A DNA stretch of 32,313 bases, taken from NCBI GenBank assembly GCA_947258975.1, contig CAMYKK010000059.1, forward strand, positions 1 to 32,313, read 5' to 3'. The number at the start of each line of letters is the position of its first letter. The stretch's first letter is position 1. Below are positions 8,374 to 29,743 of the stretch, in pieces. The position numbers and the translations under genes are program-made. The notes beneath the pieces are model-generated. The model had not been told where the DNA came from and searched no databases. It saw nothing but the letters and a program-made list of their open reading frames with translations. Source of the DNA: an uncultured Gammaproteobacteria bacterium. Its GTDB lineage: Bacteria > Pseudomonadota > Gammaproteobacteria > Arenicellales > JAANXG01.

Positions 8374-8420
8374 GCAGACACTCCGCTTAGGATCACCATG
8401 ATGTTCATAGATCGTTTGAA

Positions 8421-9007: not shown

Positions 9008-9042
9008 AAACAGCGCGATGAGAATATTTCATCGCACTGTTT
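9008..9042 (-). terminator. Hairpin terminator of the fasciclin gene
   Basis: Arms 9008-9021 and 9029-9042 pair over 14 positions (AAACAGCGCGATGA with TCATCGCACTGTTT) with a single G-T wobble and a 7-base loop. On the minus strand the hairpin is followed by ACTATTTCATC, a short T-containing tail. It lies 30 bases after the stop of the fasciclin gene. Confidence 0.7.
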
Positions 9043-9071
9043 GTTTCAAAAGCAAAAAGCACTTTTGGCAA

Positions 9072-9587
9072 TTATGACGCCGGCATGATCACGGCATCGA
9101 TCACGTGAATGACGCCGTTACGGGTTACAATGTCGGTCTTGACTACTTTCGCGTTGTCGACGGTGACGCCATCTTTGCTACCGATGGTGATGTTTTGGCC
9201 TTGCACGCTCTTGGCCGTGTCGATGTTCATCACGTCCTTCGCCATCACTTTACCGGCGACCACGTGGTAAGTCAGGATATTGGCCAGGGCTTTTTTGTCC
9301 TTGAGCAACGCTGCCAGTTGATCCTTTGGGATCTTGGCGAACGCCTCATCGGTCGGGGCGAAGACCGTGAATGGTCCGTCACCCTTTAGAGTCTCAACCA
9401 GACCCGCGGCTTTGATTGCGGCGACAAGAGTACTAAAAGATCCTGCAGACACGGCAGCATCGACGATGTCCATCGACGTCTTGCTCATGGATTTCTCGGC
9501 GTGGTGTGCAGCGTTGACCAGCGAGACGCCCGATAATGAGACCACCGCGGCTAGGGTGACTAGACTTTTAGAGATAAAGTTTTTCAT
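9072..9587 (-). CDS. Secreted fasciclin (FAS1) domain protein
   Basis: A 171-residue protein with a signal peptide at residues 1-26 ([20 protein letters not shown], cleavage after VNAA) and a single FAS1 domain. The H1 box is [17 protein letters not shown] and the H2 box is [34 protein letters not shown] lies between. FAS1 proteins are exported adhesion or binding domains. Small single-domain versions are often induced with photo-oxidative stress genes, which suits this location. Start: ATG at 9585-9587, with TTAGGAGCAACAG as a good ribosome binding site. It is monocistronic, with a hairpin terminator at 9008-9042. Confidence 0.93.
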
Positions 9588-9737
9588 CTGTTGCTCCTAA
9601 GTGCGTTGTTGAATTTAAGAACACGCTAGTTTAGTCAGCCGTCGTGAACATAATGTCGATTTGCAGTGAAGAAGAGATGAAATTTATTATTTAGCGCCGA
9701 AAAGCAACCGCTCACATTCAAGAATTTTGAGCAACAT

Positions 9738-11057
9738 TCAGCCCAAACGAAGCGGAACAGATGTAAGAGACCCAACGGACGGATCTAACGATGGTGTTAT
9801 AGAATCACATCGGCAGTCAGGCTTGATAAACAATAACTGCGCGTCGCCGATGGCGCGCTCTAAAAAACCACCTTCGCAGTAGCATAGATAGAATTCCCAC
9901 ATGCGAACGAATGTATCCGAGTAACCTAACTCGCGCACACGGGGGATGTTGCGCCGGAAACGTTCAAGCCAGTGACGCAGGGTGGTTGCGTAGTGGGGAC
10001 CGATGTCCTCGAGGTGGAACAAGCGCATATCGCTGCAGCGGGTGGCGGCTAGCGTCATGGCCGATACCGAGGGTATGAAGCTGCCAGGAAAAATATATCT
10101 TTGGATAAAATCCACCGACCGTATAGCGGCTTGGTAACGTTGATCGGCAATGGTAATGGCCTGCAACAACACCAAGCCGCTGGGTTTGACGAGGTCACTA
10201 CATTTTTTGAAATAGGTATCCAGGTACTGGTGCCCAATCGCCTCGATCATCTCGATTGATACGAGTTTGTCGTAGATCCCGGTGAGGTCGCGATAATCTT
10301 TTAAAAGCACGGTAATAAGATCCGACAAACCAGCCTCGTCGATCTTGTTTTTGGCAAACACATACTGTTCTTTCGAGATCGTCGTAGTGGTCACCCTGCA
10401 TCCATAGTGTTTGGCGGCATGGATGGCAAAACTACCCCAACCAGTACCGATCTCCAGGACATGGTCTTCTGGTCCTAAGTCGAGTTTTTGGCAGATTCGA
10501 TCGAGTTTAGTTATCGAAGCCTCGTATAGGCTGGTATCTGGGCTTGGAAAGATTGCGCTGGAATACATCATGGTCTCGTCGAGAAACAGCTCGAAAAGTT
10601 GATTACCGAGATCGTAGTGTGCGGCGATATTACCCTTGCTACCGCCGCGTGTATTACGATGTAACCAATGAAACACCTTGTGTAAAGGCGCGGTAATCCG
10701 AGTTGCGCTGCTATCCATGCCATCTAGGACGTGACGGTTACGCAGCAATAGCTGCACCGCCGCGGTGAGATTGCTGCATTCAAAATGACCGGCCATATAG
10801 GCCTCACCGGCGCCAATGGTGCCGCCTAATGCGACTTGCTTATAAAACGACGGATGTTTAACGAAGATTGTTGCATGCATTCCGTCGTGCTCCAGAGAGC
10901 CAAACTGGTGAGCTTGTTCATGATCCTGGATCACCAAAGACCCATAAGACATGTCTCCCAAGCGGTTAATTACCGCACGCTTAGCCATGCGATCCAACAG
11001 ACCAACCTGCCGATCACGAGGAAAAATATTTTGCTTATTTGCGAGGATCGCTTTCAT
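9738..11057 (-). CDS. Cyclopropane-fatty-acyl-phospholipid synthase-like methyltransferase
   Basis: A 439-residue SAM-dependent methyltransferase of the Cfa/Mycolic acid synthase family that modifies double bonds of membrane-lipid acyl chains. The N-terminal domain (GSLVIQDHE, GGTIGAGEAYMAGHFEC) is the lipid-facing part. The catalytic domain has AAHYDLGNQLFELFLDETMMYS, the SAM motif VLEIGTGWGSFAIHAAKHYG, and VSIEMIEAIGHQYLDTYF. The end (MWEFYLCYCEGGFLERAIGD) matches the long-form enzymes found beside DUF1365 and FAD oxidoreductases. The product could be a cyclopropane, a methyl-branched acyl chain or a furan fatty acid precursor. It is the last gene of the eight-gene operon, 11 bases after DUF1365. 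Confidence 0.92.
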   Translation of the reverse strand: MKAILANKQNIFPRDRQVGLLDRMAKRAVINRLGDMSYGSLVIQDHEQAHQFGSLEHDGMHATIFVKHPSFYKQVALGGTIGAGEAYMAGHFECSNLTAAVQLLLRNRHVLDGMDSSATRITAPLHKVFHWLHRNTRGGSKGNIAAHYDLGNQLFELFLDETMMYSSAIFPSPDTSLYEASITKLDRICQKLDLGPEDHVLEIGTGWGSFAIHAAKHYGCRVTTTTISKEQYVFAKNKIDEAGLSDLITVLLKDYRDLTGIYDKLVSIEMIEAIGHQYLDTYFKKCSDLVKPSGLVLLQAITIADQRYQAAIRSVDFIQRYIFPGSFIPSVSAMTLAATRCSDMRLFHLEDIGPHYATTLRHWLERFRRNIPRVRELGYSDTFVRMWEFYLCYCEGGFLERAIGDAQLLFIKPDCRCDSITPSLDPSVGSLTSVPLRLG

Positions 11058-11068
11058 GGCACAATTCC

Positions 11069-11839
11069 TTATGGACGAGAACTAAGATTCAGTTTGTCGG
11101 GATGGTTATGGAGAGGAACGCGCTTTAACCATAGCCGCAGCGCTTGGTAATAAATGGTGCCAATGACCTTAATAGTGATAAATGGATACCGAATCAGAAC
11201 ACTTGCCAGGTGGGTACTCGAAATAGGGCGATGGCGCAGCGTCAAGGTGGCGTCAAAAATCTTACCCACGTCTGTGTAATTTTCCATATGCACGGAAAGA
11301 CTTTCATTTGGCTCCGAGAAGTGCCAGTCGTAATCGATTTCCATAGGCATAAATGGAGAAACATGAAATGATTTTTGCATTCTAAAACGCTTATGGCCAT
11401 GTCTGCCTAGGTCTTGGTCAACGCTCAGAACATAACAGTGTTGTTCGCCCCACGGCGTGTTGTTGACCTCCACTACGATAGTTTCGACGCGCTCGTCGGC
11501 ACTATCAAAACAATAATAAAAACTGACGGGGTTGAACCCATAGCCGAAGTAGCGCAATTGCGTAAGCAGTCGTATCGGCCCCTCCGGCCGGCGTCCAGTC
11601 TGATCGGTGACCAGGTCACGCACCGCGTCGCTCAGCGGGATCCGGGCATCTCCAAGATGATCGGAACGTTTAAACCACGCTGCGTTCGGGCGCTTCGCCG
11701 ACCACAGCCAGTACCGTTGAAATATGTGTGGCAGTTCGTCCAGGTCGAGATAGACCATGAACAATCGATACACAAACCGATGTTCTGCCGGGTTCTGCCG
11801 CCGGTGTCTAACTTGCCCGACGTAAAGGCAACTCTGCAT
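11069..11839 (-). CDS. DUF1365 domain-containing protein
   Basis: A 256-residue DUF1365 protein. Family features are the opening YVGQVRHRRQNPAEHRFVYR, the core LTQLRYFGYGFNPVSFYYCF, VVVEVNNTPWGEQHCYVL, and the KSFHVSPFMPMEIDYDWHFSEP block. The fold is unknown. Across bacteria it sits between an FAD amine-oxidase-type gene and a Cfa-like gene, exactly as here, which ties it to acyl-chain modification by association. Its start lies inside the 3-prime end of the FAD gene, a 32-base overlap, so translation is probably coupled. Confidence 0.92.
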   Translation of the reverse strand: MQSCLYVGQVRHRRQNPAEHRFVYRLFMVYLDLDELPHIFQRYWLWSAKRPNAAWFKRSDHLGDARIPLSDAVRDLVTDQTGRRPEGPIRLLTQLRYFGYGFNPVSFYYCFDSADERVETIVVEVNNTPWGEQHCYVLSVDQDLGRHGHKRFRMQKSFHVSPFMPMEIDYDWHFSEPNESLSVHMENYTDVGKIFDATLTLRHRPISSTHLASVLIRYPFITIKVIGTIYYQALRLWLKRVPLHNHPDKLNLSSRP

Positions 11840-13085
11840 CGTTCAAACTCTCATGAAAGTGTCGCAGCGCATTGAGGGCGCTAACCACGCCATCTTCGTG
11901 GAAACCGAAGCGCCAGTAGGCACCGCAATAATAAGTGCGCCGGGTGCCGTTGATCACCTGGTGTTGATCTTGGGCTGCGACACCGGCGCGGGTATGCATG
12001 GGGTGCGCATAACGCATACGTCTAATGACAAGCGCTGGGTCGATGTTGTCGGTGTTGTTGAGGGTGACACAGAAGGTCTCTGGTGCGTCAATACCTTGCA
12101 GGATGTTCATGTTGTAGGTCACCGACACCCGGGTTTGCTCATCATCCAACATGTGATAATTCCACGCCGCCCAGGCCCTGCGTTTACGCGGTAGTATCGA
12201 GGTGTCGGTATGTAATACCGCCTCATTCATCTGGTAGGGGATCGCGCCCAGCACTGCACGCTCCATTGGTGACGGGTCTGTCAACAGCCGCAATGCCTGA
12301 TCACTATGCGTAGCAATAAACACATAATCGAAATCAAGGGATGCCCCGCTGCTGGTCCTGACAATATTTCTATCGTTTAAGCGGTGCACCGCGACCACCG
12401 GTGTATTCAGTCGGATGCGGTCCCGAAATGGGGCGATCATTTTCTCCACGTAATTCCTCGAACCACCCTTGACGACATACCACTGTGGGCGATTATTGAC
12501 AGCAAGCATGCCGTGGTTATCGAAAAAGCGCACGAAGTACTGCACGGGAAAATCACGCATTTTCACTGGGTCGGTGGACCAAATCGCCGCGCCCATAGGC
12601 AGCAAATATTGGTTGATAAAGACCTGGCTGTATCGATGCTGTTTGAGATAATCACCCAAGGTGAGGGTGTCATCGTTGTCCAGTAATATGGCGCTTGCCT
12701 CGCGATTGAAACGCAATATATCGAGGAGCATCCTGTAAAAGCGGATTGACACCAGGTTCTTACGCTGAGCGAACAACGTATTTAATGTCGTACCGTTATA
12801 CTCCAAGCCGGTGCGCTCGCACTTGACGCTAAAGGTCATGTCGCTGGCCTGCTCAGCGACGCCTAACTCGCGCAGTAGTTTGATGAAATTGGGATAAGTT
12901 CGATGGTTGAAAACGATAAATCCGCTGTCAACCGTATAGTGGTTGCCTTGCAGCTCGATGTCGTGAGTATGGGTATGCCCACCGGCATAATCGTTGCTCT
13001 CGAAGACGGTAATGTCGTGCTCACGATATAAGGCCCGTGCGACGACGTTGCCTGCGATACCGGTACCGATGATGGCGATTTTCAT
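11808..13085 (-). CDS. FAD-dependent amine-oxidase-type oxidoreductase
   Basis: A 425-residue flavoprotein. The N-terminus IAIIGTGIAGNVVARAL is the dinucleotide-binding loop, followed by the acidic VFESNDYAGGHTHTHD, in which Glu would bind ribose and GGH marks this family. VDSGFIVFNHRTYPNFIKLL and the C-terminal YYCGAYWRFGFHEDGVVSAL, which contacts FAD, complete the signature. Relatives in DUF1365-Cfa operons act on membrane acyl chains; desaturation of a methylated chain toward furan fatty acids is one described role for this gene type. Here that remains inference. The start codon overlaps the lipocalin stop (ATGA at 13082-13085). Confidence 0.92.
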   Translation of the reverse strand: MKIAIIGTGIAGNVVARALYREHDITVFESNDYAGGHTHTHDIELQGNHYTVDSGFIVFNHRTYPNFIKLLRELGVAEQASDMTFSVKCERTGLEYNGTTLNTLFAQRKNLVSIRFYRMLLDILRFNREASAILLDNDDTLTLGDYLKQHRYSQVFINQYLLPMGAAIWSTDPVKMRDFPVQYFVRFFDNHGMLAVNNRPQWYVVKGGSRNYVEKMIAPFRDRIRLNTPVVAVHRLNDRNIVRTSSGASLDFDYVFIATHSDQALRLLTDPSPMERAVLGAIPYQMNEAVLHTDTSILPRKRRAWAAWNYHMLDDEQTRVSVTYNMNILQGIDAPETFCVTLNNTDNIDPALVIRRMRYAHPMHTRAGVAAQDQHQVINGTRRTYYCGAYWRFGFHEDGVVSALNALRHFHESLNDAELPLRRAS

Positions 13086-13657
13086 GGTAGCGCCACGGAC
13101 GCGTTCGTCGCAGTCGCGCGACGTCTGGCGGCGGTCTGTTGCGGCACTTTCCGCAGTTTGCTGGTGTCGTAGCCCGCCGCAGCAACCAGGTCGACCAACC
13201 GGTCGTATTCACTGTACGGAAGGCTTGGCCTGCGCGCCATGATCCAAACGTAATCGCGCCGCAGTCGTCCGATTATCGTGACCGAATAATCGGTTGTCAG
13301 GTACATCACCCGGTAGTCAGCCTTGAACGGCCAGATGAACTGCACTCCCCACACGGCGTTGCTCTTGCGATCTTTGATATATCCAGCGGAGTGGTAGCGT
13401 TTGAGTTTGCCGTTGAATCCACCGCTACGGAAGCTGAAGGTAGTTCCAACCGCACCGTTCTCTAACAACCGATAAGACTCTACTGCGTTGTAAGCATTTC
13501 GTTCTAAAAAGGTCGGTATTGCCGCGATGACATACCAATCCCCCATAAAGCGCGATAACTCCACGTTGTCGACGGTTGGCAGCGGCCGTTCGGGCAGGCT
13601 CTGGCAGCCGGCAAGCAGCAGGCTAATCAAAAGCGAAAGAGTGAGTCGGCGAGGCAT
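13082..13657 (-). CDS. Lipocalin family lipoprotein (Blc-like)
   Basis: A 191-residue outer-membrane-type lipocalin. The N-terminus is a lipoprotein signal ending LLISLLLAGCQS, with the lipidated Cys at about residue 17. Lipocalin motifs follow: FMGDWYVIAAIPTFLERNAYNAVESY (structurally conserved region 1, with GxW), FNGKLKRYHSAGYI, VWGVQFIWPFKADYRVMYLTTDYSVTIIGR, and DYVWIMARRPSLPYSEYDRL. Blc proteins bind fatty acids or lysophospholipids, which fits a lipid-modifying operon. The ATG at 13657 was chosen because only it gives the lipobox; the frame stays open to 13759 inside the upstream gene. The C-terminal 25 residues are an extra basic tail. Confidence 0.92.
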   Translation of the reverse strand: MPRRLTLSLLISLLLAGCQSLPERPLPTVDNVELSRFMGDWYVIAAIPTFLERNAYNAVESYRLLENGAVGTTFSFRSGGFNGKLKRYHSAGYIKDRKSNAVWGVQFIWPFKADYRVMYLTTDYSVTIIGRLRRDYVWIMARRPSLPYSEYDRLVDLVAAAGYDTSKLRKVPQQTAARRRATATNASVALP

Positions 13658-13673
13658 TGTCCAATGGCGTCTT

Positions 13674-14306
13674 TTAAAGGATACGGTAGCGCAGGCGTCC
13701 GCCGTTAGTCTGTGACTCCAATGCCAACCATTCGCGTTGCGTGGAATACCAAAGATCAATGATCAGGTCGCGCGCGGTGAGACGATAACGAAGCGCTGGC
13801 GTGCTTTTACCTTTTACTTCAACTTGATCTGTTCCGAGAACTTTGATCTTCACATTCAAGTGTTCACCGGTTTGGGCATTCAATAGCTTATCGGCGGTGA
13901 GAAACGACGGGTCCCAGTAGGCAAAGCTTTTCACGCAGCCTGCAATTTGGCTTTGCTGATTGCGCGACTCGACGATAAATTTCTCACCGCGCTGTTCCGC
14001 CTCGACTTGTAAAAATTCGCCATTATCGTCAGTGCGTGATGCGAGTCGTTGCAGGCACCCATTACTCCAAATTTCTTGATTTTCGTGTTGGTATCGATAG
14101 GCGGTGAAGAATAAAAACTTGACGTTAAACTGTGCATCGATGGCCACTACACGTTGATCGTCAGGACCATCGACCCGGAAATGATGATAGCCAATCTTGC
14201 TGTCATCCAGGTACACGGTGAACCGCCACTCCTGGGCACGTTCAGTACCTGCCCATGCTGGGCCTAGTAACAACGTCGCTAGAGCAACAAAAATTAACCT
14301 TTTCAT
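13674..14306 (-). CDS. DUF6134-like exported protein
   Basis: A 210-residue exported protein with a signal peptide (MKRLIFVALATLLLGPAWAG, cleavage after AWA). The mature part is beta-rich: WRFTVYLDDSKIGYHHFRVDG, FNVKFLFFTAYRYQHENQEIW, and CVKSFAYWDPSFLTADKLLNAQTG. This layout matches DUF6134, a periplasmic family found in the same lipid operons and of unknown function. A lipid-binding role is possible from context only. It is coupled to the DUF1295 gene by a 4-base ATGA overlap at 14303-14306, and the lipocalin starts 17 bases after its stop. Confidence 0.8.
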   Translation of the reverse strand: MKRLIFVALATLLLGPAWAGTERAQEWRFTVYLDDSKIGYHHFRVDGPDDQRVVAIDAQFNVKFLFFTAYRYQHENQEIWSNGCLQRLASRTDDNGEFLQVEAEQRGEKFIVESRNQQSQIAGCVKSFAYWDPSFLTADKLLNAQTGEHLNVKIKVLGTDQVEVKGKSTPALRYRLTARDLIIDLWYSTQREWLALESQTNGGRLRYRIL

Positions 14307-15145
14307 CGGGTGGCCTCCGAACGGGTCTTTGCCAGTGGTTTAGGTAGCCCGGGAATGAACGCGTTGGTGCGTTCGCGATACTGGCGGTACGCGGGCCGCC
14401 TTTCTTGAATATCCTTTTCGAGTAACGTGACGCCGGATACTCTGAGCAGCAAAAAGGTGATCAGAATTGGAGCGAATATCGTCCACCATGCGCCGGCGCC
14501 GACCGCGATCAGATAGAAGCCCCACCAGACACACGTTTCACCAAAGTAGTTTGGGTGACGGGTGTACCGCCATAGACCCCGGTCCATGACATTGCCACGA
14601 TTACTCGTATCGGACTTGAAGCGTGCGAGCTGCCAATCACCAACCGCCTGAAAGATCATCCCAACCAACCAAAGTCCGACGCCGGCAAAATCCCAAGGCC
14701 CTAGTATGCTCGATCCGCTGATGGCGGCCGCTAACGGCGTCGCAATCAACCAAGCGAGCACGGCTTGCAGGCCGAAGACGACGTACAGGCTTTTGTATTC
14801 AAAGTGCGGCTCGTTGTTGTGGCGTATCGCCTGGTAACGTGAATCCTCCGGCTTGCCCCAATTACGCCAGGTGATATATACGCTCAGGCGCAGCGACCAA
14901 ATCAGTAACAACACCAACACCAGTGACAGGCGCGTGCCAATGTCCGAGCACAGCACGACGTAGACAACTGCGGCCAACAAGAACATCAAAGACCATAAGC
15001 TATCGACGATGCTGACGTCGCGCTTGATCAGGCTGATCAACCAGGCGGCCACGGCAAACACGAATAGCGCGGCCAGTGCCCACAGCCATGCGACCCAATC
15101 AAACACAACCCACCTCGGGTATTTGCTTTGGGTAATGTGTGCCAT
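14303..15145 (-). CDS. DUF1295 / steroid 5-alpha-reductase-like membrane enzyme
   Basis: A 280-residue polytopic membrane protein with about six or seven helices. It carries the family signature at its C-terminal third: GLWRYTRHPNYFGETCVWWGFYL, the NADPH- and substrate-binding block of steroid 5-alpha-reductase and isoprenylcysteine-methyltransferase-like folds. SIVDSLWSLMFLLAAV near the N-terminus is also typical of DUF1295. Family members are believed to reduce double bonds of lipids using NAD(P)H. The location suggests an acyl or related lipid substrate, which is inference. The 3-prime end overlaps DUF6134 and the 5-prime end overlaps DUF2878. Confidence 0.92.
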   Translation of the reverse strand: MAHITQSKYPRWVVFDWVAWLWALAALFVFAVAAWLISLIKRDVSIVDSLWSLMFLLAAVVYVVLCSDIGTRLSLVLVLLLIWSLRLSVYITWRNWGKPEDSRYQAIRHNNEPHFEYKSLYVVFGLQAVLAWLIATPLAAAISGSSILGPWDFAGVGLWLVGMIFQAVGDWQLARFKSDTSNRGNVMDRGLWRYTRHPNYFGETCVWWGFYLIAVGAGAWWTIFAPILITFLLLRVSGVTLLEKDIQERRPAYRQYRERTNAFIPGLPKPLAKTRSEATR

Positions 15146-15644
15146 TCAAACGGTCCGCAACCAGCAGCAATAACGGCATGGCTATAGTCCATACAACGCC
15201 TACGGCGAACAGGGCTCTGACTGGATCCATCAACGTCACTGCCCCCAACTTCGCGCCAGCGTAATAGGCCAGCGGTCCGCCGACGGCGCCAAACACGACA
15301 GCGAGCAGCCAGCGGTCCTTCAACCAGCTCAGGGAGACGTTGAGTGTGGTAGCGAAAATCATCCACATCGCCACCATCCAGTGCGGTGCAGTGTCGGGCA
15401 TTAGAACTCCGGAAGTGAATTCAAGCCATCCCCCAAGTATCAGGATAGTATCGGCTATAAAGCCGAACACGGCGGCGAATGCAATCAACCAAGTTTGGAA
15501 GCGCGCCTGGGGTGCTAAATATAGATGGATCGCGACCACCGTTAAAGCAATAGCGGTGCCCGCCCAGGGCATCCCGCGCGCGCCGCCCACCACACACGCG
15601 AACCAACCAACCTGAAATGCAGCGATGTTAAGCCAGACGTTCAT
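15099..15644 (-). CDS. DUF2878 membrane protein
   Basis: A 181-residue integral membrane protein with about five hydrophobic helices, matching DUF2878. Visible landmarks are NIAAFQVGWFACVVGGARG, the intramembrane FGFIADTILILGGWLEF, PHWMVAMWMIFATTLNVSLSWL, and GAVGGPLAYYAGAKLGAV. The function is unknown; the gene type is found almost only in Cfa and FAD-oxidoreductase operons. Its last 47 bases overlap the DUF1295 gene and its start overlaps the upstream methyltransferase by 4 bases, so all these proteins are made from one coupled message. Confidence 0.9.
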   Translation of the reverse strand: MNVWLNIAAFQVGWFACVVGGARGMPWAGTAIALTVVAIHLYLAPQARFQTWLIAFAAVFGFIADTILILGGWLEFTSGVLMPDTAPHWMVAMWMIFATTLNVSLSWLKDRWLLAVVFGAVGGPLAYYAGAKLGAVTLMDPVRALFAVGVVWTIAMPLLLLVADRLNGTHYPKQIPEVGCV

Positions 15645-16690
15645 GTTCCGGGACGCTCAAATACGTAGTGACTGACCCACCACTGCTGACCGTCGTCGTA
15701 ACCAAACAATTCCGCGCAGGCCATGAAAAATATTCGCCAGCGCATCCACCACAATCCCGCGTGTTCGTGGCCGTAAGTCGACTCAAGGATCGGCCAGATC
15801 TTTTCGCGGTGGTTTTCCATATTGGCCAGCCAGGCGTTGGCGGTCTTTTGATAATGTATGCCATCCCAGCGCCAGCGGTTTATAAGATGAAGTCGCTGTT
15901 GGAACCACAGCGGCAGATCATCGCTGGGCATCATTCCGCCGCTGAAAAAATGCCGGCTCATCCAGTCGTTGGCCCCGTTGTCGACGAAAGCGTAGGGCAC
16001 CGCGCGATGACAGAATATATGCATAAAGAATTTACCGCCGGGGGCCAACCAGGCGTAAATACAGTCGAACAGCAAACGCCAGTTACGGATGTGTTCGAAC
16101 ATTTCCACTGAGACAACGCGATCAAAACGTTGGTCCGTTTGGAATTGATTCATATCGCAAGTAATCACGTCAATATTATTCAAACCTCGCCGCTGAGCCT
16201 GGCTGCTTATGAATTCGCGTTGCGACACAGAATTGGAGACCGCGGTGATGTGACTGGTGGGGTAGTGTTGTGCCATCCATAAGGTCAGTGACCCCCAACC
16301 GCAGCCAAGTTCGAGGATCGATTGACCGTCGAGGATCCGCGCACGCTGACAGGTGGCTTCCAGTGCGAGCGCCTCTGCCTGGGAGAGATCGTTCACGCCG
16401 AGGTGCCACAAGCAGCTGCTGTACTTGCGATGTGGACCCAGCACGTAGGCAAAAAACTCCGCAGGCACTTCGTAATGCTGCTCGTTTGCCGTATCCGGTA
16501 CCAAGGCAATCGGCGCGCCATCCATCGCGGCGATGAAGCGGCTATTCAGGCTTGCCATCGCCTCGCAGTTGTCTGCGCAAATTTCCTTCAGGCGTGCTCG
16601 AACCAGCCGCCGGATACCAGTGCGAATGAATGCGTCGGGCAATCGACCTTGTTCAGTCCAATCCAGAGCGAGTCGAGCGGCGGTGTTCAT
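15641..16690 (-). CDS. Second Cfa-like class I SAM methyltransferase
   Basis: A 349-residue methyltransferase of the cyclopropane-synthase superfamily, clearly distinct from the one at 9738-11057. It lacks the long lipid-binding N-terminal domain and has QHYEVPAEFFAYVLGPHRKYSSC in place of the usual HYDxGNxFYxLFLD block. The SAM site is SILELGCGWGSLTLWMAQHYP, and VVSVEMFEHIRNW and FCHRAVPYAF follow. It is the first gene of the operon, with GGGGA 8-12 bases before the ATG at 16690. The long tryptophan-rich C-terminus suggests membrane contact. The substrate is unknown; acyl chains of phospholipids are likely by family. Confidence 0.9.
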   Translation of the reverse strand: MNTAARLALDWTEQGRLPDAFIRTGIRRLVRARLKEICADNCEAMASLNSRFIAAMDGAPIALVPDTANEQHYEVPAEFFAYVLGPHRKYSSCLWHLGVNDLSQAEALALEATCQRARILDGQSILELGCGWGSLTLWMAQHYPTSHITAVSNSVSQREFISSQAQRRGLNNIDVITCDMNQFQTDQRFDRVVSVEMFEHIRNWRLLFDCIYAWLAPGGKFFMHIFCHRAVPYAFVDNGANDWMSRHFFSGGMMPSDDLPLWFQQRLHLINRWRWDGIHYQKTANAWLANMENHREKIWPILESTYGHEHAGLWWMRWRIFFMACAELFGYDDGQQWWVSHYVFERPGT

Positions 16691-20240: not shown

Positions 20241-21023
20241 TCACTCATCGTTACTGTCAAGCATGTGGTAAAGGGCGCGGGGGTTTGGGATGGTAATATT
20301 TCGTCCATTGGCCACCGCTAAACCCTCACGTTCTAGTTCGGTGATAGCCCGCGCCACGGATTCTGGTCGCGCAGAAAGTAGTGATGCAATCTGACGGCGC
20401 ATGAGTGGCAGCTGTACGCACACGGCGCCTCCTCTACTGGTGATCCCGTATTGCTTTTCCATCATCCGAAGAAAATGGATCAAGCGCAGTTTGATTGGCA
20501 GGTGTTGTTCGCGCATGACCAGACCGTTTCGCGACCCCCTGTCACGTGCCAGTTTTCGAAATAGCATGCGGGAGAAGAGTGGGTATGTATCAGTGAGACG
20601 AATGATGGGTGTCTTTGGGAAGAAGCAGATATTGCAAACAGTCAACGCCTCCGCGGTTGTGACGTGGGGCTCATCCGCGAACAGGCTTCTGTATCCCATG
20701 AGATCTCCGGGTCCCACCAATCGCAATGCCTTATCTGATCGGATTGCATCCTTGTAATTCAACAGCACCAATCCGCTACGTACACAATACAGGCCTGAAG
20801 AGGCGACCCCTTCAGAGAAAATCTTGTCACCCCGATCAAAGTTACGAACGCCCATGGAACGCTCCAGCAGTGCCTTGTCCGCTGTGCGGAAGGGGACATC
20901 TCGCATGCAAGATTGAATACCACAATCAACGTGGGCGCATTTCGGTACCAACTGCGTACGCCAGTTTTTTTCGGATTTTTCAGCGCCAGCACAGATAGCG
21001 CCGCTATCGTCGTTATGAAACAT
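20241..21023 (-). CDS. Crp/Fnr family regulator, FNR-like with N-terminal Cys cluster
   Basis: A 260-residue regulator with an N-terminal Cys-rich segment, cyclic-nucleotide-like beta barrel, long dimer helix and HTH. Cysteines 29, 34 and 39 (CAHVDCGIQSC) plus Cys130 in LTVCNI, aligned with FNR Cys122, suggest an iron-sulfur oxygen sensor, though the spacing CX4CX4C differs from FNR. The cAMP-binding signature of CRP is absent: GDLMGYRSLF replaces the GE...RSA-type loop. The recognition helix reads ARPESVARAI, keeping the FNR Glu and Arg. Start: ATG at 21021-21023. It probably senses oxygen or redox state and is unlikely to sense cAMP. Confidence 0.88.
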   Translation of the reverse strand: MFHNDDSGAICAGAEKSEKNWRTQLVPKCAHVDCGIQSCMRDVPFRTADKALLERSMGVRNFDRGDKIFSEGVASSGLYCVRSGLVLLNYKDAIRSDKALRLVGPGDLMGYRSLFADEPHVTTAEALTVCNICFFPKTPIIRLTDTYPLFSRMLFRKLARDRGSRNGLVMREQHLPIKLRLIHFLRMMEKQYGITSRGGAVCVQLPLMRRQIASLLSARPESVARAITELEREGLAVANGRNITIPNPRALYHMLDSNDE

Positions 21024-21370: not shown

Positions 21371-22114
21371 TTAAGCGGCCTCGCGCTGTTTCAGCCACAC
21401 TGCCAGCGACTCAGAATCTCCGATGTGTTCCCCGCTTATAAAGATTTGCGGAACAGTCACTTCACCAGCGACAGCGCGTAGACTTCGCTCTGTGTAGTCG
21501 TTATTGAGAACAAGCTCCTCGAATTCGATGCCGGCGTCGTGCAGAATGCCTTTAGCGCGGGCACAGTATGAGCAACCGCTGCGCGTAAAGACGGTGACAT
21601 CCAGTGGCTTGGCCGCATTGGGCGCGACATATTCGAGCATGGTATCGGCATCGGAGATTTCGAAAGGATCACCCTGCTTGTCGGGTTCGATAAACATTTT
21701 TTCGATGACCCCGTCTCGCACTAGCATGGAATAACGCCAGGAACGTTCGCCGAAGCCCAGGTCATTCTTTGAAACCAACATACCCATTCCACGGCTGAAA
21801 TCGCCGTTACCGTCGGGCAAGAACGTAATGTTCTGGGCCTTCTGCTCGGTGCGCCATTTGTTCATGACGAACGCGTCGTTGACCGATATGCAGACGATCT
21901 CATCTATGCCATTGGCCCTGAACATCGGGGCCAATTGATTGTAACGCGGCACATGTGTCGATGAGCAGGTAGGTGTGAATGCGCCGGGAAGCGCGAATAC
22001 AATAACAGTCTTGCCCTTGAAGACGTCATCCGTGCTCACTCCGATCCATTCGTGATCGCGACGCGCGCGGAAGACAACATTGGGCACCTTTTGCCCTTCT
22101 CTGCTTTCAATCAT
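21371..22114 (-). CDS. Peroxiredoxin 5-glutaredoxin hybrid peroxidase
   Basis: A 247-residue fusion protein that reduces hydrogen and organic peroxides with glutathione. Residues 1-165 are a Prx5 domain with the peroxidatic Cys50 in [16 protein letters not shown]. Residues 170-247 are a glutaredoxin domain with CSYC (Cys181, Cys184), [18 protein letters not shown] and the glutathione-binding TVP motif. The fused Grx recycles the Prx. Length and order match the hybrid Prx5 of Haemophilus and Chromatium. The start has a strong ribosome binding site (TTAGGAG). It lies near the divergent oxyR, a frequent pairing, and is probably OxyR-activated; the DUF2061 gene between them reads the same way. 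Confidence 0.95.
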
Positions 22115-22176
22115 GATTTACTCCTAATTTTCCAGTTAATTGGTGTAGAACTCCAAACGTGTTGGGTTCGGTTTAG

Positions 22177-22191
22177 CCCGGGATACCCGGG
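22177..22191. repeat. Short perfect hairpin between DUF2061 and Prx5-Grx
   Basis: CCCGGG-ATA-CCCGGG is a perfect 6-bp hairpin in the 95-base gap between the two minus-strand genes. It could attenuate read-through or separate their expression. No T-run follows on the minus strand. Confidence 0.4.
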
Positions 22192-22209
22192 ACGTCAGAT
22201 GGCTTGTTT

Positions 22210-22410
22210 CTATGTTGACACGTACATGCGTGTACTGTGAGGGTGCTGCGAACGGGCCCATGCCTTTTCATGGAGGTGATAGGTGACGGTATTGATGGCG
22301 GGTTCGACCAAGGCGATGGCGCCGCCCACGATCACGCTACCGCTGAGCACATAGCCAACAGTGAACGCGACGGTGAAGTGCACGATGGCGAAACTGAGTG
22401 TCTTGGTCAT
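22210..22410 (-). CDS. DUF2061 small membrane protein
   Basis: A 66-residue protein matching DUF2061: MTKTLSFAIVHFTVAFTVGY, VLSGSVIVGGAIALVEPAIN and TVTYHLHEKAW. Two membrane helices are joined by a short loop, with the conserved EPxxNTxxYxxHEKxW end, then a family-external tail. GGAG precedes the ATG at 22410 (revcomp of GCTCCGG). The function is unknown. The position between oxyR and the hybrid peroxidase suggests co-expression with the peroxide response. Confidence 0.9.
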   Translation of the reverse strand: MTKTLSFAIVHFTVAFTVGYVLSGSVIVGGAIALVEPAINTVTYHLHEKAWARSQHPHSTRMYVST

Positions 22411-22478
22411 GATGTTTGCTCCGGATAAATTAGTTATGACCGTCTAGTCTTTCTGTTTATTTATCATAAGTAAATTGA

Positions 22479-22495
22479 ATTATATTTAATATATT
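22479..22495. promoter_or_regulatory. AT palindrome in the oxyR-DUF2061 intergenic region (site B)
   Basis: ATTATATT-T-AATATATT differs from the palindrome at 8421-8437 at the centre and in one arm base, and also follows TTGA. It lies in the 123-base divergent region, 68-84 bases from the DUF2061 start and 39-55 from the oxyR start. ATAG-type quarter sites appear just to the right (near 22496-22510), so OxyR binding here is possible. The region is very AT-rich, which weakens the match. Confidence 0.35.
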
Positions 22496-22533
22496 GATAG
22501 TATTTATAGAACATTGAGCTCGCGCCAAGCCCG

Positions 22534-23454
22534 GTGGATTATCTTCCTACAATCAAGCAGTTACGCTATTTCACGGCCCTAGAGGAGCACGAGCACTTCG
22601 GCCGTGCCGCCGAGGCGTGCTTCGTTTCGCAATCCGCGTTTTCGGTCGCCATTCGTGAGTTGGAGTCGGTGCTGGACATCCAGCTCGTCGACCGTACCCG
22701 TAAGCAAGTGACCATCACCGCGATTGGTAGTGACATCGCCACGCAGGCACGCTTGGTACTACGCGATGCGCAATCCCTGGTTGAAATGGCCCGGCACGAG
22801 CGCGAACCGTTGGCGGGGCGTCTCGCTTTAGGCGTGATTCCCACCATCGCTCCCTTCTTGCTACCGCGCTTCATGCCCGCGCTCCACGAGGCGTATCCGC
22901 GCCTGCAGCTTTATCTGCGCGAAGACATGACGGCAGTTTTGCTTGACACACTACTTGGCGGTGAGCTGGATTTAGTGCTGATGGCACTGCCCTACGATAT
23001 GCGCCACGTTGAGGTTATGCCACTATTACGCGATCCATTCCGCCTCGCCTACCGCAAGGGTACCAAGCGGATCGATCCCAAGCATTACAGCTTCAACCGG
23101 CTGCAACGCGACAGTATCTTGTTACTCAAAGACGGCCATTGCTTGCGCGATCATGCGTTGGCCGCCTGTAAGCTTCGTCAGCAAGAGAAGCTCAGTCGCT
23201 TCTCAGCCAATAGCCTCCTGACACTCGTACAGATGGTCGATTCCGATCTCGGTATTTCTTATCTTCCCGCCATGGCTGAAGGATCAGCACTGTTGGCGAA
23301 TACCAGGGTATGTACCCAACCGTTAGATAAGAATGCTTACCGTGACATTGGGCTGGTATGGCGACGTGGCACGGGCCGCACAGAGGAGTTTCGTGCGCTC
23401 GGTGCAATGATTCAAAAGCATAAGCCCAAGTCGGTAGCCAGCATCATTAAGTAA
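22534..23454 (+). CDS. oxyR: OxyR, LysR-type peroxide-sensing regulator
   Basis: A 306-residue LysR-type regulator. The N-terminal winged helix reads IKQLRYFTALEEHEHFGRAAEACFVSQSAFS. The regulatory domain holds the redox pair Cys203 and Cys212 in GHCLRDHALAAC, the CX8C arrangement that forms a disulfide with hydrogen peroxide in OxyR (Cys199 and Cys208 in E. coli). The downstream FSANSLLTLVQMVDSDLGISYLPA is likewise OxyR-specific. The start is a GTG at 22534. It is divergent from DUF2061 and the Prx5-Grx hybrid, the expected targets. It should activate peroxide defence genes in this island. Confidence 0.95.
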   Translation: MDYLPTIKQLRYFTALEEHEHFGRAAEACFVSQSAFSVAIRELESVLDIQLVDRTRKQVTITAIGSDIATQARLVLRDAQSLVEMARHEREPLAGRLALGVIPTIAPFLLPRFMPALHEAYPRLQLYLREDMTAVLLDTLLGGELDLVLMALPYDMRHVEVMPLLRDPFRLAYRKGTKRIDPKHYSFNRLQRDSILLLKDGHCLRDHALAACKLRQQEKLSRFSANSLLTLVQMVDSDLGISYLPAMAEGSALLANTRVCTQPLDKNAYRDIGLVWRRGTGRTEEFRALGAMIQKHKPKSVASIIK

Positions 23455-23554
23455 ATTATTGTTTTCCAAGTTGGTTATGCTGAAATCAACAGTGCATTGT
23501 ACGGAAGAGGAGAACGCGCATTCTTTATTGCAAGGTAATTCTATAGGATGAGGC

Positions 23555-23569
23555 GACTGCGGCGCAGTC
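23555..23569. promoter_or_regulatory. Perfect 15-bp palindrome upstream of the photoactivated cyclase
   Basis: GACTGCG-G-CGCAGTC is an exact palindrome with 7-bp arms. It lies 50 bases before the cyclase ATG and about 100 bases after the oxyR stop. It could be an operator for the cyclase gene or the hairpin of an oxyR terminator, but no T-run follows. Confidence 0.4.
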
Positions 23570-23619
23570 CACAAGGCCGATGATTTTCTGGTCGCCGACT
23601 CCGGTAGAGCATAACTATT

Positions 23620-24663
23620 ATGAAACGAATTTATTATGTAAGTCGATTTTCCGATACGCTTCGGCCTGAGGACTTGGAAAAAATCTTTGACATTTCGGCG
23701 AGGAACAATCCTCAGAACCAAATAACCGGGTTCCTAGTTTGCCTTGGCAACACCTTTTTCCAGGTTCTAGAAGGTCCCGACAAAATGGTGGATCGCCTAT
23801 TTTTTAAGGTGATCGTGAACGATACGCGCCACAAAGAAGTGCTATGCCTGAAATCGGAGTCGGGGATGACAACTCGATTGTTTCCAGACTGGCATATGAA
23901 AGTTTTCGATTTGAACGCAGGGGGTGAGACATTGCCGTTCGCTTTCAGTCAGATGTTAACTGCGTTGCTCGAATCGCAGTATGTCATCGCTCAGTACACT
24001 CAGCCCAGTGTTTTTCATATGCTGGAGAAGGGGGTTAATCCCACTTTGGTCTCGCCGTGCAAGAAGATAGCCACTGTATTTTTCAGCGACATTATTGGTT
24101 TCTCCCTGTTCTCTCAATGGCTGACTCCCGGAGAATTGATCGAGGTAGTCAATTCCCATATCGAAATGTGTACACAAGTGATCAGCCAACATGGGGGTGA
24201 GGTAACCAAGCTTACCGGCGACGGATTACTCGCTTATTTTTCGCAAAAGCAATCCGACGCCGCAATCGCGGCAAGTCTTGATTTACTGCAAGAAATGAAG
24301 CTTCGGCGCGAAAAGGCATCCGGCAAAAGTCCACTGCGTTATCTGTATGGAGGGGTCGGACTGGCTCATGGAACCGTGTATGAAGGGAATATTGGCTTTG
24401 CCCTCAAACGCGATTTCACCATCCTGGGCAATACAGTGAATCTTGCCTCAAGACTGGAATCCTATACCCGGCAACTTGAGGTCCGCCTCATTATGAACCA
24501 GGAAAGTGTGACTAGCGCCAAACGTCAATGGAAATTCATTTCCTTGGGCAAACACCGCTTGAAAGGTCAATCTAGTGCATCGGAGATATTCAGCATTCAA
24601 GAATTGGGTCGCCTGAATGTAAGAGAAATTTATCGTGTGATCGAAGAGGAGTTTTCGAGGTAG
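23620..24663 (+). CDS. Photoactivated adenylyl cyclase (BLUF + class III cyclase, bPAC type)
   Basis: A 347-residue soluble blue-light receptor that makes cAMP. Residues 1-100 are a BLUF flavin domain: Tyr6 (MKRIYYVS), Asn30, Gln48 (TFFQVLEG), Trp91 and Met93 (RLFPDWHMK). Residues 101-145 form the linker helix. Residues 150-345 are a class III cyclase with metal-binding Asp157 (FFSDIIGF) and Asp201 (LTGDGLL), adenine-selecting Lys197 and Thr267, and Asn274 and Arg278 for catalysis. The Lys, Thr and both Asp are at the same numbers as in Beggiatoa bPAC, and the length is nearly equal (350), so it is of the adenylyl rather than guanylyl type. A DUF1840 gene and a photolyase follow on the same strand. 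Confidence 0.95.
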   Translation: MKRIYYVSRFSDTLRPEDLEKIFDISARNNPQNQITGFLVCLGNTFFQVLEGPDKMVDRLFFKVIVNDTRHKEVLCLKSESGMTTRLFPDWHMKVFDLNAGGETLPFAFSQMLTALLESQYVIAQYTQPSVFHMLEKGVNPTLVSPCKKIATVFFSDIIGFSLFSQWLTPGELIEVVNSHIEMCTQVISQHGGEVTKLTGDGLLAYFSQKQSDAAIAASLDLLQEMKLRREKASGKSPLRYLYGGVGLAHGTVYEGNIGFALKRDFTILGNTVNLASRLESYTRQLEVRLIMNQESVTSAKRQWKFISLGKHRLKGQSSASEIFSIQELGRLNVREIYRVIEEEFSR

Positions 24664-24725
24664 ATAGTGACTGATCGAAATATCTCCATAAACGTATTAC
24701 GTTAGAGGAAGCCGAGGCGTTTTCT

Positions 24726-25040
24726 ATGCTAGTCACTTTCGAAACGCAAGTATTTGCCAACATCACCATGTTTGGCGATGTCGCAGTCACCCTCCTCAAA
24801 CTCATGGGCCACAGCGGTACGGTCCCGAGCGCGATAAAGGCCGAGGATATACCCGCGGCACTGGAGCGCCTGGAAAAAGCCATCGCGGCCGAAAAAGCAG
24901 CGACTGCTGCACAAACATTCCGTCCAAATGTGGATGAAGAAGATGAAAACGCCGTCAGTCTACCGCATTGCGCCGTCCCGTTAATCCAGTTGTTGGAGGC
25001 GGCGGCCGAGGCCGACTGCGATGTGATCTGGTATAGCTGA
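24726..25040 (+). CDS. DUF1840 domain-containing protein
   Basis: A 104-residue protein matching DUF1840. The start MLVTFETQVFANITMFGDVA and the following LLKLMGHSGTVPSAIKAEDIPAALERL are family hallmarks. A variable linker precedes the conserved end VSLPHCAVPLIQLLEAAAEA with DVIW. The function is unknown. It begins 62 bases after the cyclase stop and may be co-transcribed with it. No light- or cAMP-related role is known for the family. Confidence 0.9.
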   Translation: MLVTFETQVFANITMFGDVAVTLLKLMGHSGTVPSAIKAEDIPAALERLEKAIAAEKAATAAQTFRPNVDEEDENAVSLPHCAVPLIQLLEAAAEADCDVIWYS

Positions 25041-25104
25041 TAATGTTGTCTACCTCCTTAAAGAAAAAAACGCGTAAATGACTTATGCTAGTTGTTCGGT
25101 GGCA

Positions 25105-25130
25105 GTGACGAGAGACCGCATGGTCGTCAC
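25105..25130. repeat. Inverted repeat between DUF1840 and the photolyase
   Basis: GTGACGA (25105-25111) and TCGTCAC (25124-25130) are exact reverse complements, separated by 12 bases that contain a further CC-GCAT-GG. It may be a terminator for the DUF1840 message or an operator for the photolyase. The photolyase start lies 160 bases further on. Confidence 0.4.
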
Positions 25131-25291
25131 AATATTGTTGAATGAAATACAAACCTAAAGAGAAACGGTTTCAGTAAAGAAAGCGTCCAAAGATGCGTCG
25201 TATGTTGGCATGGTTGGCGTTCTGAACACGATGGTGATGGAGAACACGGACGGCTTTGTGACCAAGGGTCAAACTTGGTGACGATATTACC

Positions 25292-26830
25292 ATGAGCATA
25301 TTGCGGCTGATACTCGGTGACCAGCTGAGTCATGATATCTCGTCCCTTCGGGACTCTGATCCGGATCATGACATCGTCCTCTTGTGTGAGGTTTACGAAG
25401 AAGCGACTTACGTTAAGCATCACAAAAAGAAAATCGCCTTTCTGTTTTCGGCAATGCGGCATTTTGCGACAGAGCTGAGAGAAAAGCGTCATCGCGTTGA
25501 TTACATCCAACTCGACGACGAGAAAAACACCGGTTCATTTACGAGTGAGGTCGAGCGTGCAATCAAAAGGCACGATCCAAAGAAAATCGTGGTGACCTTT
25601 CCTGGTGAATACCGCCTTCTTAAAGCTATCCAAGGCTGGGCAGAACTATTCGAATTCGAAGTTGAGATTCGGCCGGATGACAGGTTCCTCTGTTCACCAG
25701 AGGAGTTCAACACGTGGGCCGAAGGCCGCAAGCAGTTGCGCATGGAGTTCTTCTACCGCGAAATGCGTAAGCGACACGATATTCTTATGGGTAACGGCGA
25801 ACCCGAAGGTGGGCAGTGGAATTATGATGTCGAGAACCGCAAACCGCCCAAAGATGGGCTCAAAATACCGCAACCCTACAAATCAAAGCTAGATGCCGTG
25901 ACGCGCGAGGTCTTAGATCTTGTGGCCGAAAAGTTCGGCAATCATTTTGGTGATCTGGAGCCGTTTTATTTTGCGGTAACACGTGACCAGGCGCTGTATG
26001 CGCTGCAGAAATTCATCGACGAGCGTCTGACGCATTTTGGGGATTATCAGGACGCGATGATGGAGGGCGAGCCCTGGATGTATCACTCGCATTTGAGTTT
26101 TTACCTCAATTGCGGACTTCTCAATCCCCTAGAGACCGCCCGCAAGGCCGAGCGGGCGTATCATGAGGGACGCGCACCGCTCAATGCCGTGGAGGGATTT
26201 ATTCGGCAGATCATCGGCTGGCGGGAATACGTGCGCGGAATTTACTGGTTGAAAATGCCGCGGTATGCAGACGAGAATTTTCTGGACGCCGAGCGCAAGC
26301 TGCCGCGGCTGTATTGGAATGGCGAGACAAAAATGAATTGCCTGCGTCAGTGCGTTAAGGAAACCAAGGAAAACGCGTATGCCCACCATATACAGCGGCT
26401 CATGGTGTTGGGAAATTTTGCCCTATTGACCGGTGTTGATCCAAAACAGGCGAGTGAATGGTATCTGAGCGTCTATGCAGATGCGTTTGAGTGGGTCGAG
26501 ATGCCGAATGTCACGGGCATGATCCTGTTCGCTGACGGCGGCTTGTTGGGGAGTAAGCCCTACGCAGGAGGGGGGAACCATATCAACAAAATGTCGACGT
26601 ATTGTGGCAACTGTGATTACAGCGTGTCTAAAAAGATTGGCGCCAATGCCTGTCCGTTCAATTACCTGTATTGGGATTTTCTCATCCGTCACAAAGAGAG
26701 GCTTGGCAACAATCCGCGTCTCTCCCTGGCATACAGATCCCTATCCAAGAGAGGGGATGAAAAACTCGAGGCGATCCGTGGCGATGCACGGTATTTTCTC
26801 AGGGCCTTGGAGAGGGGGGAACAAGTCTAA
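25292..26830 (+). CDS. Iron-sulfur bacterial cryptochrome/photolyase (PhrB/CryB-like)
   Basis: A 512-residue flavoprotein of the iron-sulfur cryptochrome and photolyase group (FeS-BCP), which repairs UV photoproducts, mainly (6-4) type in its best-studied member, using blue light. The N-terminal Rossmann domain (LRLILGDQLSHDISSL) binds the antenna cofactor; the helical C-terminal domain binds FAD. Four cysteines at 350, 438, 441 and 454 (MNCLRQC, TYCGNC, NACPF) are the [4Fe-4S] ligands, numbered as in Agrobacterium PhrB. His365-His366 (AYAHHIQRL) is the repair-active pair. Residues such as GFIRQIIGWREYVRG are typical. It lies downstream of the light-driven cyclase; a light-inducible promoter is likely but not visible. 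Confidence 0.95.
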   Translation: MSILRLILGDQLSHDISSLRDSDPDHDIVLLCEVYEEATYVKHHKKKIAFLFSAMRHFATELREKRHRVDYIQLDDEKNTGSFTSEVERAIKRHDPKKIVVTFPGEYRLLKAIQGWAELFEFEVEIRPDDRFLCSPEEFNTWAEGRKQLRMEFFYREMRKRHDILMGNGEPEGGQWNYDVENRKPPKDGLKIPQPYKSKLDAVTREVLDLVAEKFGNHFGDLEPFYFAVTRDQALYALQKFIDERLTHFGDYQDAMMEGEPWMYHSHLSFYLNCGLLNPLETARKAERAYHEGRAPLNAVEGFIRQIIGWREYVRGIYWLKMPRYADENFLDAERKLPRLYWNGETKMNCLRQCVKETKENAYAHHIQRLMVLGNFALLTGVDPKQASEWYLSVYADAFEWVEMPNVTGMILFADGGLLGSKPYAGGGNHINKMSTYCGNCDYSVSKKIGANACPFNYLYWDFLIRHKERLGNNPRLSLAYRSLSKRGDEKLEAIRGDARYFLRALERGEQV

Positions 26831-28902: not shown

Positions 28903-29328
28903 ATGGTTTACCGAATTATTGATCCCTTTAATGCGCTTCGAGATCTTCAGCAAGCGCTTGGCTCCACCCACTTGAATGACTGGTTTGCACGAAGCACCAC
29001 CAGTACGGGTAGTTTTCCTGCAATAAACGTTTTTTCCAAGGGCGATGACTGCGTCATCATCGCGGAGCTACCCGGCATCAACAAGAGCGATATTGACGTC
29101 AATGTGAAGGGTAATCAGATTACAATCAGTGGTAAGAAAGACATTTCTTATGACGATAATGTCAGTGTCCATCGTCGTGAGCGAGATTCAGGCAATTTCA
29201 ACAGGTCGCTGACTATCCCGATCGAGGTCGATGCTGATGGCGTCAAGGCGGAGTATCAGGACGGCGTACTCGCCGTGTTCTTACCTAGGGCTGAAGCTGA
29301 CAAGCCTCGCTCCGTCACGATTAATTAA
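28903..29328 (+). CDS. Small heat-shock protein, Hsp20/alpha-crystallin family
   Basis: A 141-residue holdase chaperone that binds unfolding proteins without ATP. An N-terminal arm (RIIDPFNALRDLQQAL) is followed by the alpha-crystallin domain, residues about 43-133: CVIIAELPGINKSDIDVNVK, NQITISGKK, ERDSGNFNRSLTIPIEVD, and the AEYQDGVLAVFLPRAE motif. The start is the second of two close ATGs; the first at 28898 is out of frame. TAGGAG is the ribosome binding site. The second hsp20 follows after 16 bases, so the pair is one operon. Confidence 0.95.
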   Translation: MVYRIIDPFNALRDLQQALGSTHLNDWFARSTTSTGSFPAINVFSKGDDCVIIAELPGINKSDIDVNVKGNQITISGKKDISYDDNVSVHRRERDSGNFNRSLTIPIEVDADGVKAEYQDGVLAVFLPRAEADKPRSVTIN

Positions 29329-29344
29329 TACTTGGGAGGTTGCC

Positions 29345-29743
29345 ATGACACCGCAAGAATTAAAGGTTCAAGAAAAGAAAGAACATCCTCAAGAGGAGGC
29401 CGAAAAAACGGAAGTCGGTCGATTCTATATTCCACAGACCGACATTCACGAGTCTTCAGATAGTTTAACTGTCACCATGGATATGCCAGGTGTTCGGAAG
29501 GACAACGTGAATGTACATTTAGAAAAGAATGTACTAACGATCACGGGCAACATTGACTTTTCAAACTACGAGAACTTGACACCAATCTATACAGAATACA
29601 ACGTCGGCAATTATACGCGCAGTTTTAGCCTCTCAAGTGAGATAAACAAAGAAGGTATCTCGGCCAAGATGGCAGATGGTGTGTTGGCGTTGCATCTACC
29701 AAAAGTCAAAGAGGCAGCGCCAACGAAGATTGAAGTCCGATAG
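29345..29743 (+). CDS. Second small heat-shock protein, Hsp20 family
   Basis: A 132-residue paralogue of its neighbour. The alpha-crystallin domain begins FYIPQTDIHESSDSLTVTMD and includes MDMPGVRKDNVNVHLEKNVL, TEYNVGNYTRSFSLSSEINK, and AKMADGVLALHLPKVKEA. The N-terminal arm is short and highly charged (many Lys, Glu). The ATG at 29345 with GGGAGG eight bases ahead was chosen over an upstream in-frame start at 29231 inside the previous gene. Paired divergent Hsp20s often form mixed oligomers, which is possible here. Confidence 0.95.
   Translation: MTPQELKVQEKKEHPQEEAEKTEVGRFYIPQTDIHESSDSLTVTMDMPGVRKDNVNVHLEKNVLTITGNIDFSNYENLTPIYTEYNVGNYTRSFSLSSEINKEGISAKMADGVLALHLPKVKEAAPTKIEVR

Follow-up and report, generated by a model that had tools for sequence, protein, structure and literature searches.

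A BLUF-coupled class III cyclase gene of an uncultured gammaproteobacterium and its natural variation at an engineered switch residue

The gene and its BLUF and cyclase residues

The window considered here, the whole stretch of 32,313 nucleotides analysed from contig CAMYKK010000059.1 of an uncultured gammaproteobacterium (assembly GCA_947258975.1), carries at 23620..24663 (+) a frame of 347 residues, free of internal stops, in which a BLUF domain is fused to a class III cyclase, the architecture of a photoactivated adenylyl cyclase (PAC). The reverse complement of the same interval, read in one frame, contains several stops. Pfam, phmmer, alignment and a structural model divide the protein into a BLUF domain (residues 1-98), an alpha3/linker segment (99-147), a class III adenylyl cyclase (148-327), and a short C-terminal tail. 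The Pfam profiles BLUF (residues 1-94, 1.9e-24) and Guanylate_cyc (residues 151-319, 1e-17) both exceed their gathering scores. Among PDB sequences the best phmmer match is OaPAC of Oscillatoria acuminata (5.3e-91, window-protein residues 1-327), followed by bPAC of Beggiatoa (1.6e-84, residues 1-331), values that over some 330 residues exclude chance; below these two rank the cyclase fragment of bPAC and then further class III cyclases, with values near 1e-17. An earlier, sequence-only reading of this DNA had proposed a bPAC-type fusion at this place, and the domain profiles, phmmer, alignment and fold all agree with it.

Residue assignments were drawn from a 14-row alignment of the window protein, the PACs of two congeners, nine PACs of a gammaproteobacterial family designated f34, OaPAC, and bPAC. 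The BLUF pocket residues that the earlier reading had named are all in register with bPAC and OaPAC: the flavin-proximal Tyr6 (23635..23637 (+), placed via the reading frame), Asn30, the switch glutamine Gln48 (23761..23763 (+)), Trp91, and Met93. The same is true of the cyclase residues, which include the metal aspartates Asp157 (24088..24090 (+)) and Asp201 (24220..24222 (+)) and the transition-state pair Asn274 and Arg278 (24439..24453 (+)) found in class III cyclases, and also Lys197 and Thr267 (24418..24420 (+)), which select adenine in the adenylyl type; guanine-selecting residues in place of the latter two were not found in the aligned window protein. That the cyclase residues carry the same numbers as in bPAC is true by way of two cancelling differences, as bPAC has one extra N-terminal residue (residue 1 of the window model corresponds to bPAC residue 2), which offsets an extra asparagine at residue 67 of the window protein (23818..23820 (+)), at the end of BLUF helix 2. 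The overall lengths are about equal, as had been claimed. The key residues superpose on those of bPAC and OaPAC, and the placement in the PAC family holds.

An AlphaFold model of the window protein, computed as a monomer from an input alignment of 12 rows, has a mean pLDDT of 85.6. Its best fold matches are solved structures of OaPAC and bPAC, among them 4yus of OaPAC (Foldseek E 5.2e-44; VIA Z 32.4 over 342 residues). Taken by itself, the cyclase domain superposes on bPAC 5mbg with a root-mean-square deviation (rmsd) of 1.4 over 192 residues.

The gene probably, at roughly 85%, encodes a short PAC of the bPAC/OaPAC kind, a soluble homodimer whose adenylyl cyclase is switched on by blue light; flavin binding, dimerisation, light activation, and a cyclic AMP (cAMP) product are ascribed to it by analogy with the family. 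On this model the BLUF domain would bind flavin, and blue light would rearrange the hydrogen bonds among Tyr6, Gln48, and the flavin, together with Trp91 and Met93; the alpha3 helices would pass this change to the cyclase pair, where ATP would be converted to cAMP at the dimer interface, with Asp157 and Asp201 holding the metals, Lys197 and Thr267 recognising adenine, and Asn274 and Arg278 serving the transition state. CRP-type regulators encoded elsewhere in the genome would then read the cAMP, a response presumed from the PAC family.

A clade with substitutions beside the active site

The window protein is closer to OaPAC (45% identity) than to bPAC (40%), and its identity to the f34 PACs ranges from 36 to 43%; between OaPAC and bPAC the figure is 58%. 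The PACs of the two congeners are 75-77% identical to the window protein. A maximum-likelihood tree groups the three congeneric proteins with support of 100/100 and sets them off from the 11 others by a branch of 1.85 changes per column; the resulting clade lies outside the group formed by OaPAC, bPAC, and f34, with the root placed at the midpoint only. Broken down along the chain, the BLUF domain matches OaPAC at 44% and bPAC at 45% identity, the linker and alpha3 at 31% and 24% (where OaPAC and bPAC share 51%), and the cyclase at 50% and 43%. The linker is, the C-terminal tail aside, the most diverged part of the window protein, and the part-by-part identities give no sign of a domain swap.

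The comparison set comprised the 11 other rows (nine f34 PACs, OaPAC, and bPAC; 10 rows at residue 271), with LiPAC, TpPAC, euPAC, and NgPAC lying outside it. Twenty-six columns are fixed in the clade for a residue that none of the other rows has, those rows themselves being at least 80% uniform at the same columns. The residue after Lys197 (codons of Lys197-Leu198-Thr199, 24208..24216 (+)), the dark-activity residue Phe198 of bPAC (PMC8522238), is Leu, Ile, and Ile in the clade as against Phe in 10 and Tyr in one of the 11 other PACs, so that the clade lacks an aromatic side chain at this position, a difference rather than a defining feature. Thr199 is found in all three members where other PACs have Ile or Met (Ile199 in bPAC), and residue 266 is Phe in place of Tyr or His. 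Residue 271 (24430..24432 (+)) is Asn in all three, and each of the 10 other PACs reaching this position has Asp; the earlier reading was correct in reporting GN in place of GD. Within alpha3, which is present in the window protein but diverged, the clade has Met at 112 and Ala at 124, against Leu and Glu, respectively, in 11 of 11 other PACs. The extra residue 67 occurs in all three members and in none of the 11.

The claim that all key residues are conserved stands for every residue that had been named, each of which aligns, but overlooked the change from Phe198 to Leu next to Lys197. According to PMC8522238, the Lys197 side chain of bPAC contacts in the dark the carbonyl oxygens of Phe198* and His266, and the substitution F198Y lowers dark turnover to about 4% and light activity to 18%. 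For the other substitution, PMC11533990 places OaPAC Asp270, the counterpart of residue 271, among five residues around an active-site calcium that its authors do not regard as physiological. Passages on Phe197 or Asp270 were looked for and not found in PMC10837130, as were passages on Leu111 or Phe197 in PMC10448171. Eight non-PAC class III cyclases in which the motif was matched show D, N, A, or S at position 271, and they include a GN encoded in the same genome as the window; Asn271 is for this reason unlikely to be the most telling change, and we take it to be tolerated and the change at 198 to be the more meaningful one. Of the two features that the earlier reading named as possible tuners, the linker is strongly diverged and Asn271 looks benign. 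Five of the non-PAC cyclases have a readable residue behind the Lys of the K..GD motif; it is aromatic (Tyr or Phe) in four of them, whereas L021 has Thr. A non-aromatic residue 198 is thus a novelty within the set of PACs compared but not within the wider class III cyclases. A tuning effect on dark activity and kinetics, upward or downward, is probable for Leu or Ile at 198 together with Thr199 and the added residue 67. The short C-terminal tail offers only a hint of a further activity modifier: at one light intensity, OaPAC shortened by at least nine C-terminal residues was 30-60 fold more photoactive (PMC6937261), but the tail of the window protein aligns poorly and the OaPAC tail had no effect when added to bPAC (same source).

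Set against characterised systems, the window protein shares with OaPAC (PDB 4yus and others) the domain order and all named photocycle and catalytic residues, and differs from it in Leu198 (Phe197 of OaPAC), Thr199, Asn271 (Asp270, a ligand of the calcium mentioned above), one extra BLUF residue, and a shorter C-terminal tail. With bPAC (PDB 5m27 and others) it shares domain order, cyclase numbering, and approximate length, but differs at 198, 199, and 271 and is only 24% identical in the linker and alpha3. The f34 PACs, from nine genomes, are likewise BLUF-cyclase fusions, one of them ending at a contig end, but have Phe or Tyr at 198 in nine of nine and Asp at 271 in all eight that reach it. 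LprA of Leptospira kobayashii resembles the predicted window enzyme in being a bacterial class III adenylyl cyclase driven by light, but its sensor domain is described as belonging to neither the BLUF nor the LOV type (PMC9043183).

Several points weigh against a functional light-gated enzyme. Over the whole chain the model deviates from the PAC crystal forms by an rmsd of 12-13, meaning that the inter-domain angle of the monomer model differs from and misfits those forms, and residues 101-140, which hold alpha3, are its lowest-confidence stretch (block means 64-72). Near the active site, residues 198, 199, 202, and 271 are not those found in the characterised bPAC and OaPAC. A natural PAC can moreover be silent, as reported for LiPAC in oocytes (<0.0005/min in dark and light; PMC8522238). 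With that precedent and a linker only 24-31% identical to those of bPAC and OaPAC, the window protein could be read as a BLUF cyclase with lost or weakened light gating, or one that is nearly inactive, through the changes at 198, 199, and 271 and the diverged alpha3. We regard this as improbable. The photocycle and catalytic residues are intact, and where OaPAC Leu111 is replaced by Met and bPAC Leu123 by Ile the hydrophobic character is kept. Judged from the codons, purifying selection is holding the PAC gene across the three genomes of the genus (Nei-Gojobori dN/dS 0.08-0.13), although a dS of 1.2-1.8, close to saturation, makes this ratio a rough one and itself counts among the points against. 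A cyclase making cyclic GMP, or both products, under blue light could be imagined, as the neighbours of the base-selecting pair (Leu198 and Phe266) differ from those of bPAC; but all three clade members keep the Lys197, Thr267, and Asp265 of bPAC and OaPAC, and the substitutions reported to turn bPAC into a guanylyl cyclase are absent, which makes this alternative very improbable indeed.

Blue-light-activated adenylyl cyclases with BLUF domains are a known family; what sets this clade apart is that it varies naturally at a switch residue that has also been engineered. The clade amounts to a natural experiment at the position that was changed from Phe198 to Tyr to cut the dark activity of bPAC. 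Dark activity limits the optogenetic use of bPAC, and the clade enzyme is ready to test in this respect. One comparison of natural soluble PACs covers a handful (bPAC, EuPAC, mPAC, LiPAC, and TpPAC; PMC8522238). With 34-45% identity to the other PACs compared and a fixed non-aromatic residue 198, the clade points to a change that the switch may tolerate in nature. A search of titles and abstracts on PAC diversity, PACs with photolyases, gammaproteobacterial BLUF cyclases, and residue 198, in which subscription journals are poorly covered, returned none on the clade.

Neighbouring genes and the possible reach of a light-made signal

Directly upstream of the PAC gene, domain searches place an OxyR-like LysR regulator (22534..23454 (+)), whose best NCBIfam match is OxyR at 215 bits, below the cut-off of 329, and, divergent from it, a peroxiredoxin-glutaredoxin fusion (21371..22114 (-)). 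The order of peroxiredoxin fusion, regulator, and PAC is kept in one congener, G001, with 78% and 83% identity for the fusion and the regulator, but not in the other, G003, where the pair does not occur within the 20 kb taken around PAC and an SDR gene ends directly before PAC. Downstream in the window lie a DUF1840 gene and then, 0.6 kb from PAC, a deoxyribodipyrimidine photolyase-related gene (DPRP, 25292..26830 (+), domain search). DPRP was considered as a functional partner of PAC and set aside, the link being weak because in both congeners DPRP lies on other contigs than PAC. Directly before the SDR-PAC pair of G003, at 7994-8284 (+) of locus L028, is a broken photolyase start with stops inside (33 residues, PF00875 E = 0.0011, 19.4 bits, below the cut-off of 26.6), which as a sign of a photolyase-PAC partnership is suggestive only. 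Two overlapping tandem HSP20-type reading frames (window 28903-29743 (+)) lie near the photolyase-related gene and MFS genes. An FtsH-like protease gene stands downstream of, and convergent with, PAC in G003 (L028 10203-12131 (-)) and G001 (L029 13919-15838 (+)), and is not beside PAC in the window. The window contains no tRNA and no Rfam match at gathering score.

Further upstream, 6517-16690 (-) holds a cluster of genes for NAD-epimerase-like, fasciclin, two cyclopropane-fatty-acid synthase-like, DUF1365, amine oxidase, lipocalin, DUF6134, DUF1295, and DUF2878 proteins. This cluster resembles, in part going by PMC4336711, the light- or singlet-oxygen-induced clusters of other proteobacteria. 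Its presence in one window with the regulator, the peroxiredoxin fusion, and DPRP raises an addition to the photoactivated cyclase proposed above, namely that PAC is the sensor of a local photo-oxidative stress island, in which light-made cAMP and the OxyR-like regulator switch on the photolyase-related and cfa-type genes. Predicted RpoE2 targets in Shewanella include cfa, a photolyase, a photolyase-related gene, and an SDR (PMC4336711), and the SDR-PAC pair of G003 follows the broken photolyase start. Blue light also increases the expression of a cfa-type gene and of photolyase-family operons in Vibrio cholerae (PMC5241685). The idea is nonetheless unlikely: DPRP lies apart from PAC in both congeners, the regulator pair is missing from the 20 kb taken around PAC in G003, the Crp/Fnr protein of the window lacks the cAMP cassette, and the promoter scans are at or near chance. 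CRP sites (TGTGA-N6-TCACA, at most two mismatches) number 10 in the window where 13.2 would be expected, hence no excess, and a sigma-70 scan of 22000-26000 found one match against 4.2 expected, on the other strand. The RpoE2/ChrR-type promoter pattern of PMC4336711, at 10 or more of 12 positions, matches 10 times, compared with a mean of 6.8 and a maximum of 10 in 20 mononucleotide shuffles; none of the matches falls in the gap before PAC, and the one at 24672 (10 of 12), which precedes DUF1840 and DPRP, belongs to a total at chance level. A ChrR-type cupin (cupin_7) has no match in the genome, which is 96% complete. With neither a promoter match before PAC nor ChrR, membership of PAC in an RpoE-ChrR regulon was rejected, and a regulatory link between PAC and its neighbours is unproven.

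The cAMP itself could act more widely. Class III cyclase domains are matched at 15 places in the genome, seemingly a large number for a single genome (contig C49 holds four, including one with an internal stop), so that cAMP from PAC would join a pool fed by other cyclases, and this raises the question of what use such a bacterium makes of light-made cAMP. The genome also has 16 cNMP-binding matches, of which at least three are full-length CRP-like proteins (L039, L040, and L041) with a GExSLLDG..RS cassette, associated with cAMP binding; local action of PAC cAMP and action via CRP transcription are both possible. The Crp/Fnr gene of the window (20241-21023 (-)) was rejected as a cAMP receptor, as its cassette lacks Arg-Ser and its N-terminus is cysteine-rich; two look-alikes occur elsewhere in the genome (L049 and L051). 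In G003, about 4.5 kb from PAC, a 922-residue frame (L028 14608-17376 (-)) combines two cyclic-nucleotide-binding stretches with a class V aminotransferase domain, an unusual fusion, and could be a cAMP-responsive enzyme. In Leptospira, LprA is reported to control motility (PMC9043183). A broader proposal is that the clade consists of naturally re-tuned PACs, in which Leu/Ile198, Thr199, Asn271, and a longer BLUF helix-2 loop set a light/dark ratio or photocycle outside the bPAC/OaPAC range by a route other than F198Y, and which feed a blue-light signal via cAMP into an oxidative-stress response, the OxyR-like/peroxiredoxin locus being shared in two species; this we hold to be possible, if rather doubtful.

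Around the f34 PACs, no neighbour family is common to most loci, as judged from nine neighbour proteins at eight of the nine loci (L038 left out), a sample rather than every neighbour. Two-component sensor or sigma-54 response-regulator genes adjoin PAC in three of the eight (L030, L032, and L033).

Distribution and origin

PAC occurs in three of the 13 genomes of the family to which the window belongs, all three in its genus (three of six there), and was not found in the 87 other genomes among the 100 searched in the order. The three members of the genus without it are 74, 86, and 90% complete, so that its absence there is uncertain. A BLUF profile search of the 13 family genomes matched these three PACs only. 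Wider draws, in which at most five candidates were scored per genome, found PAC in four of 369 genomes of the class (the window's own and three f34) and in one of 398 of the phylum (its own only), while a search among relatives of the f34 genome G044 found it in nine of 57 genomes (G044 included), all among the 36 f34 genomes. The f34 family is probably Beggiatoa-like, since one of its PACs (genome G765) is 64% identical to bPAC. As to the earlier remark that few natural relatives are known, PACs are indeed rare among the samples searched, but 11 relatives beyond the window protein were found.

A single-protein scan of genome contigs returned one PAC, on the congener contig CALZGZ010000060.1 of an uncultured gammaproteobacterium. 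Plasmid and phage records gave no relative covering the BLUF domain, with two records of each matching the cyclase part only, and none of 12 candidate stretches on viral contigs covers BLUF in a single-protein scan that detects close relatives only; a mobile origin was rejected on these grounds. In all three genomes the G+C content of the PAC gene lies below that of its surroundings (46.8 vs 53.4, 52.2 vs 55.6, and 53.1 vs 56.9), which hints, weakly, at acquisition by an ancestor.
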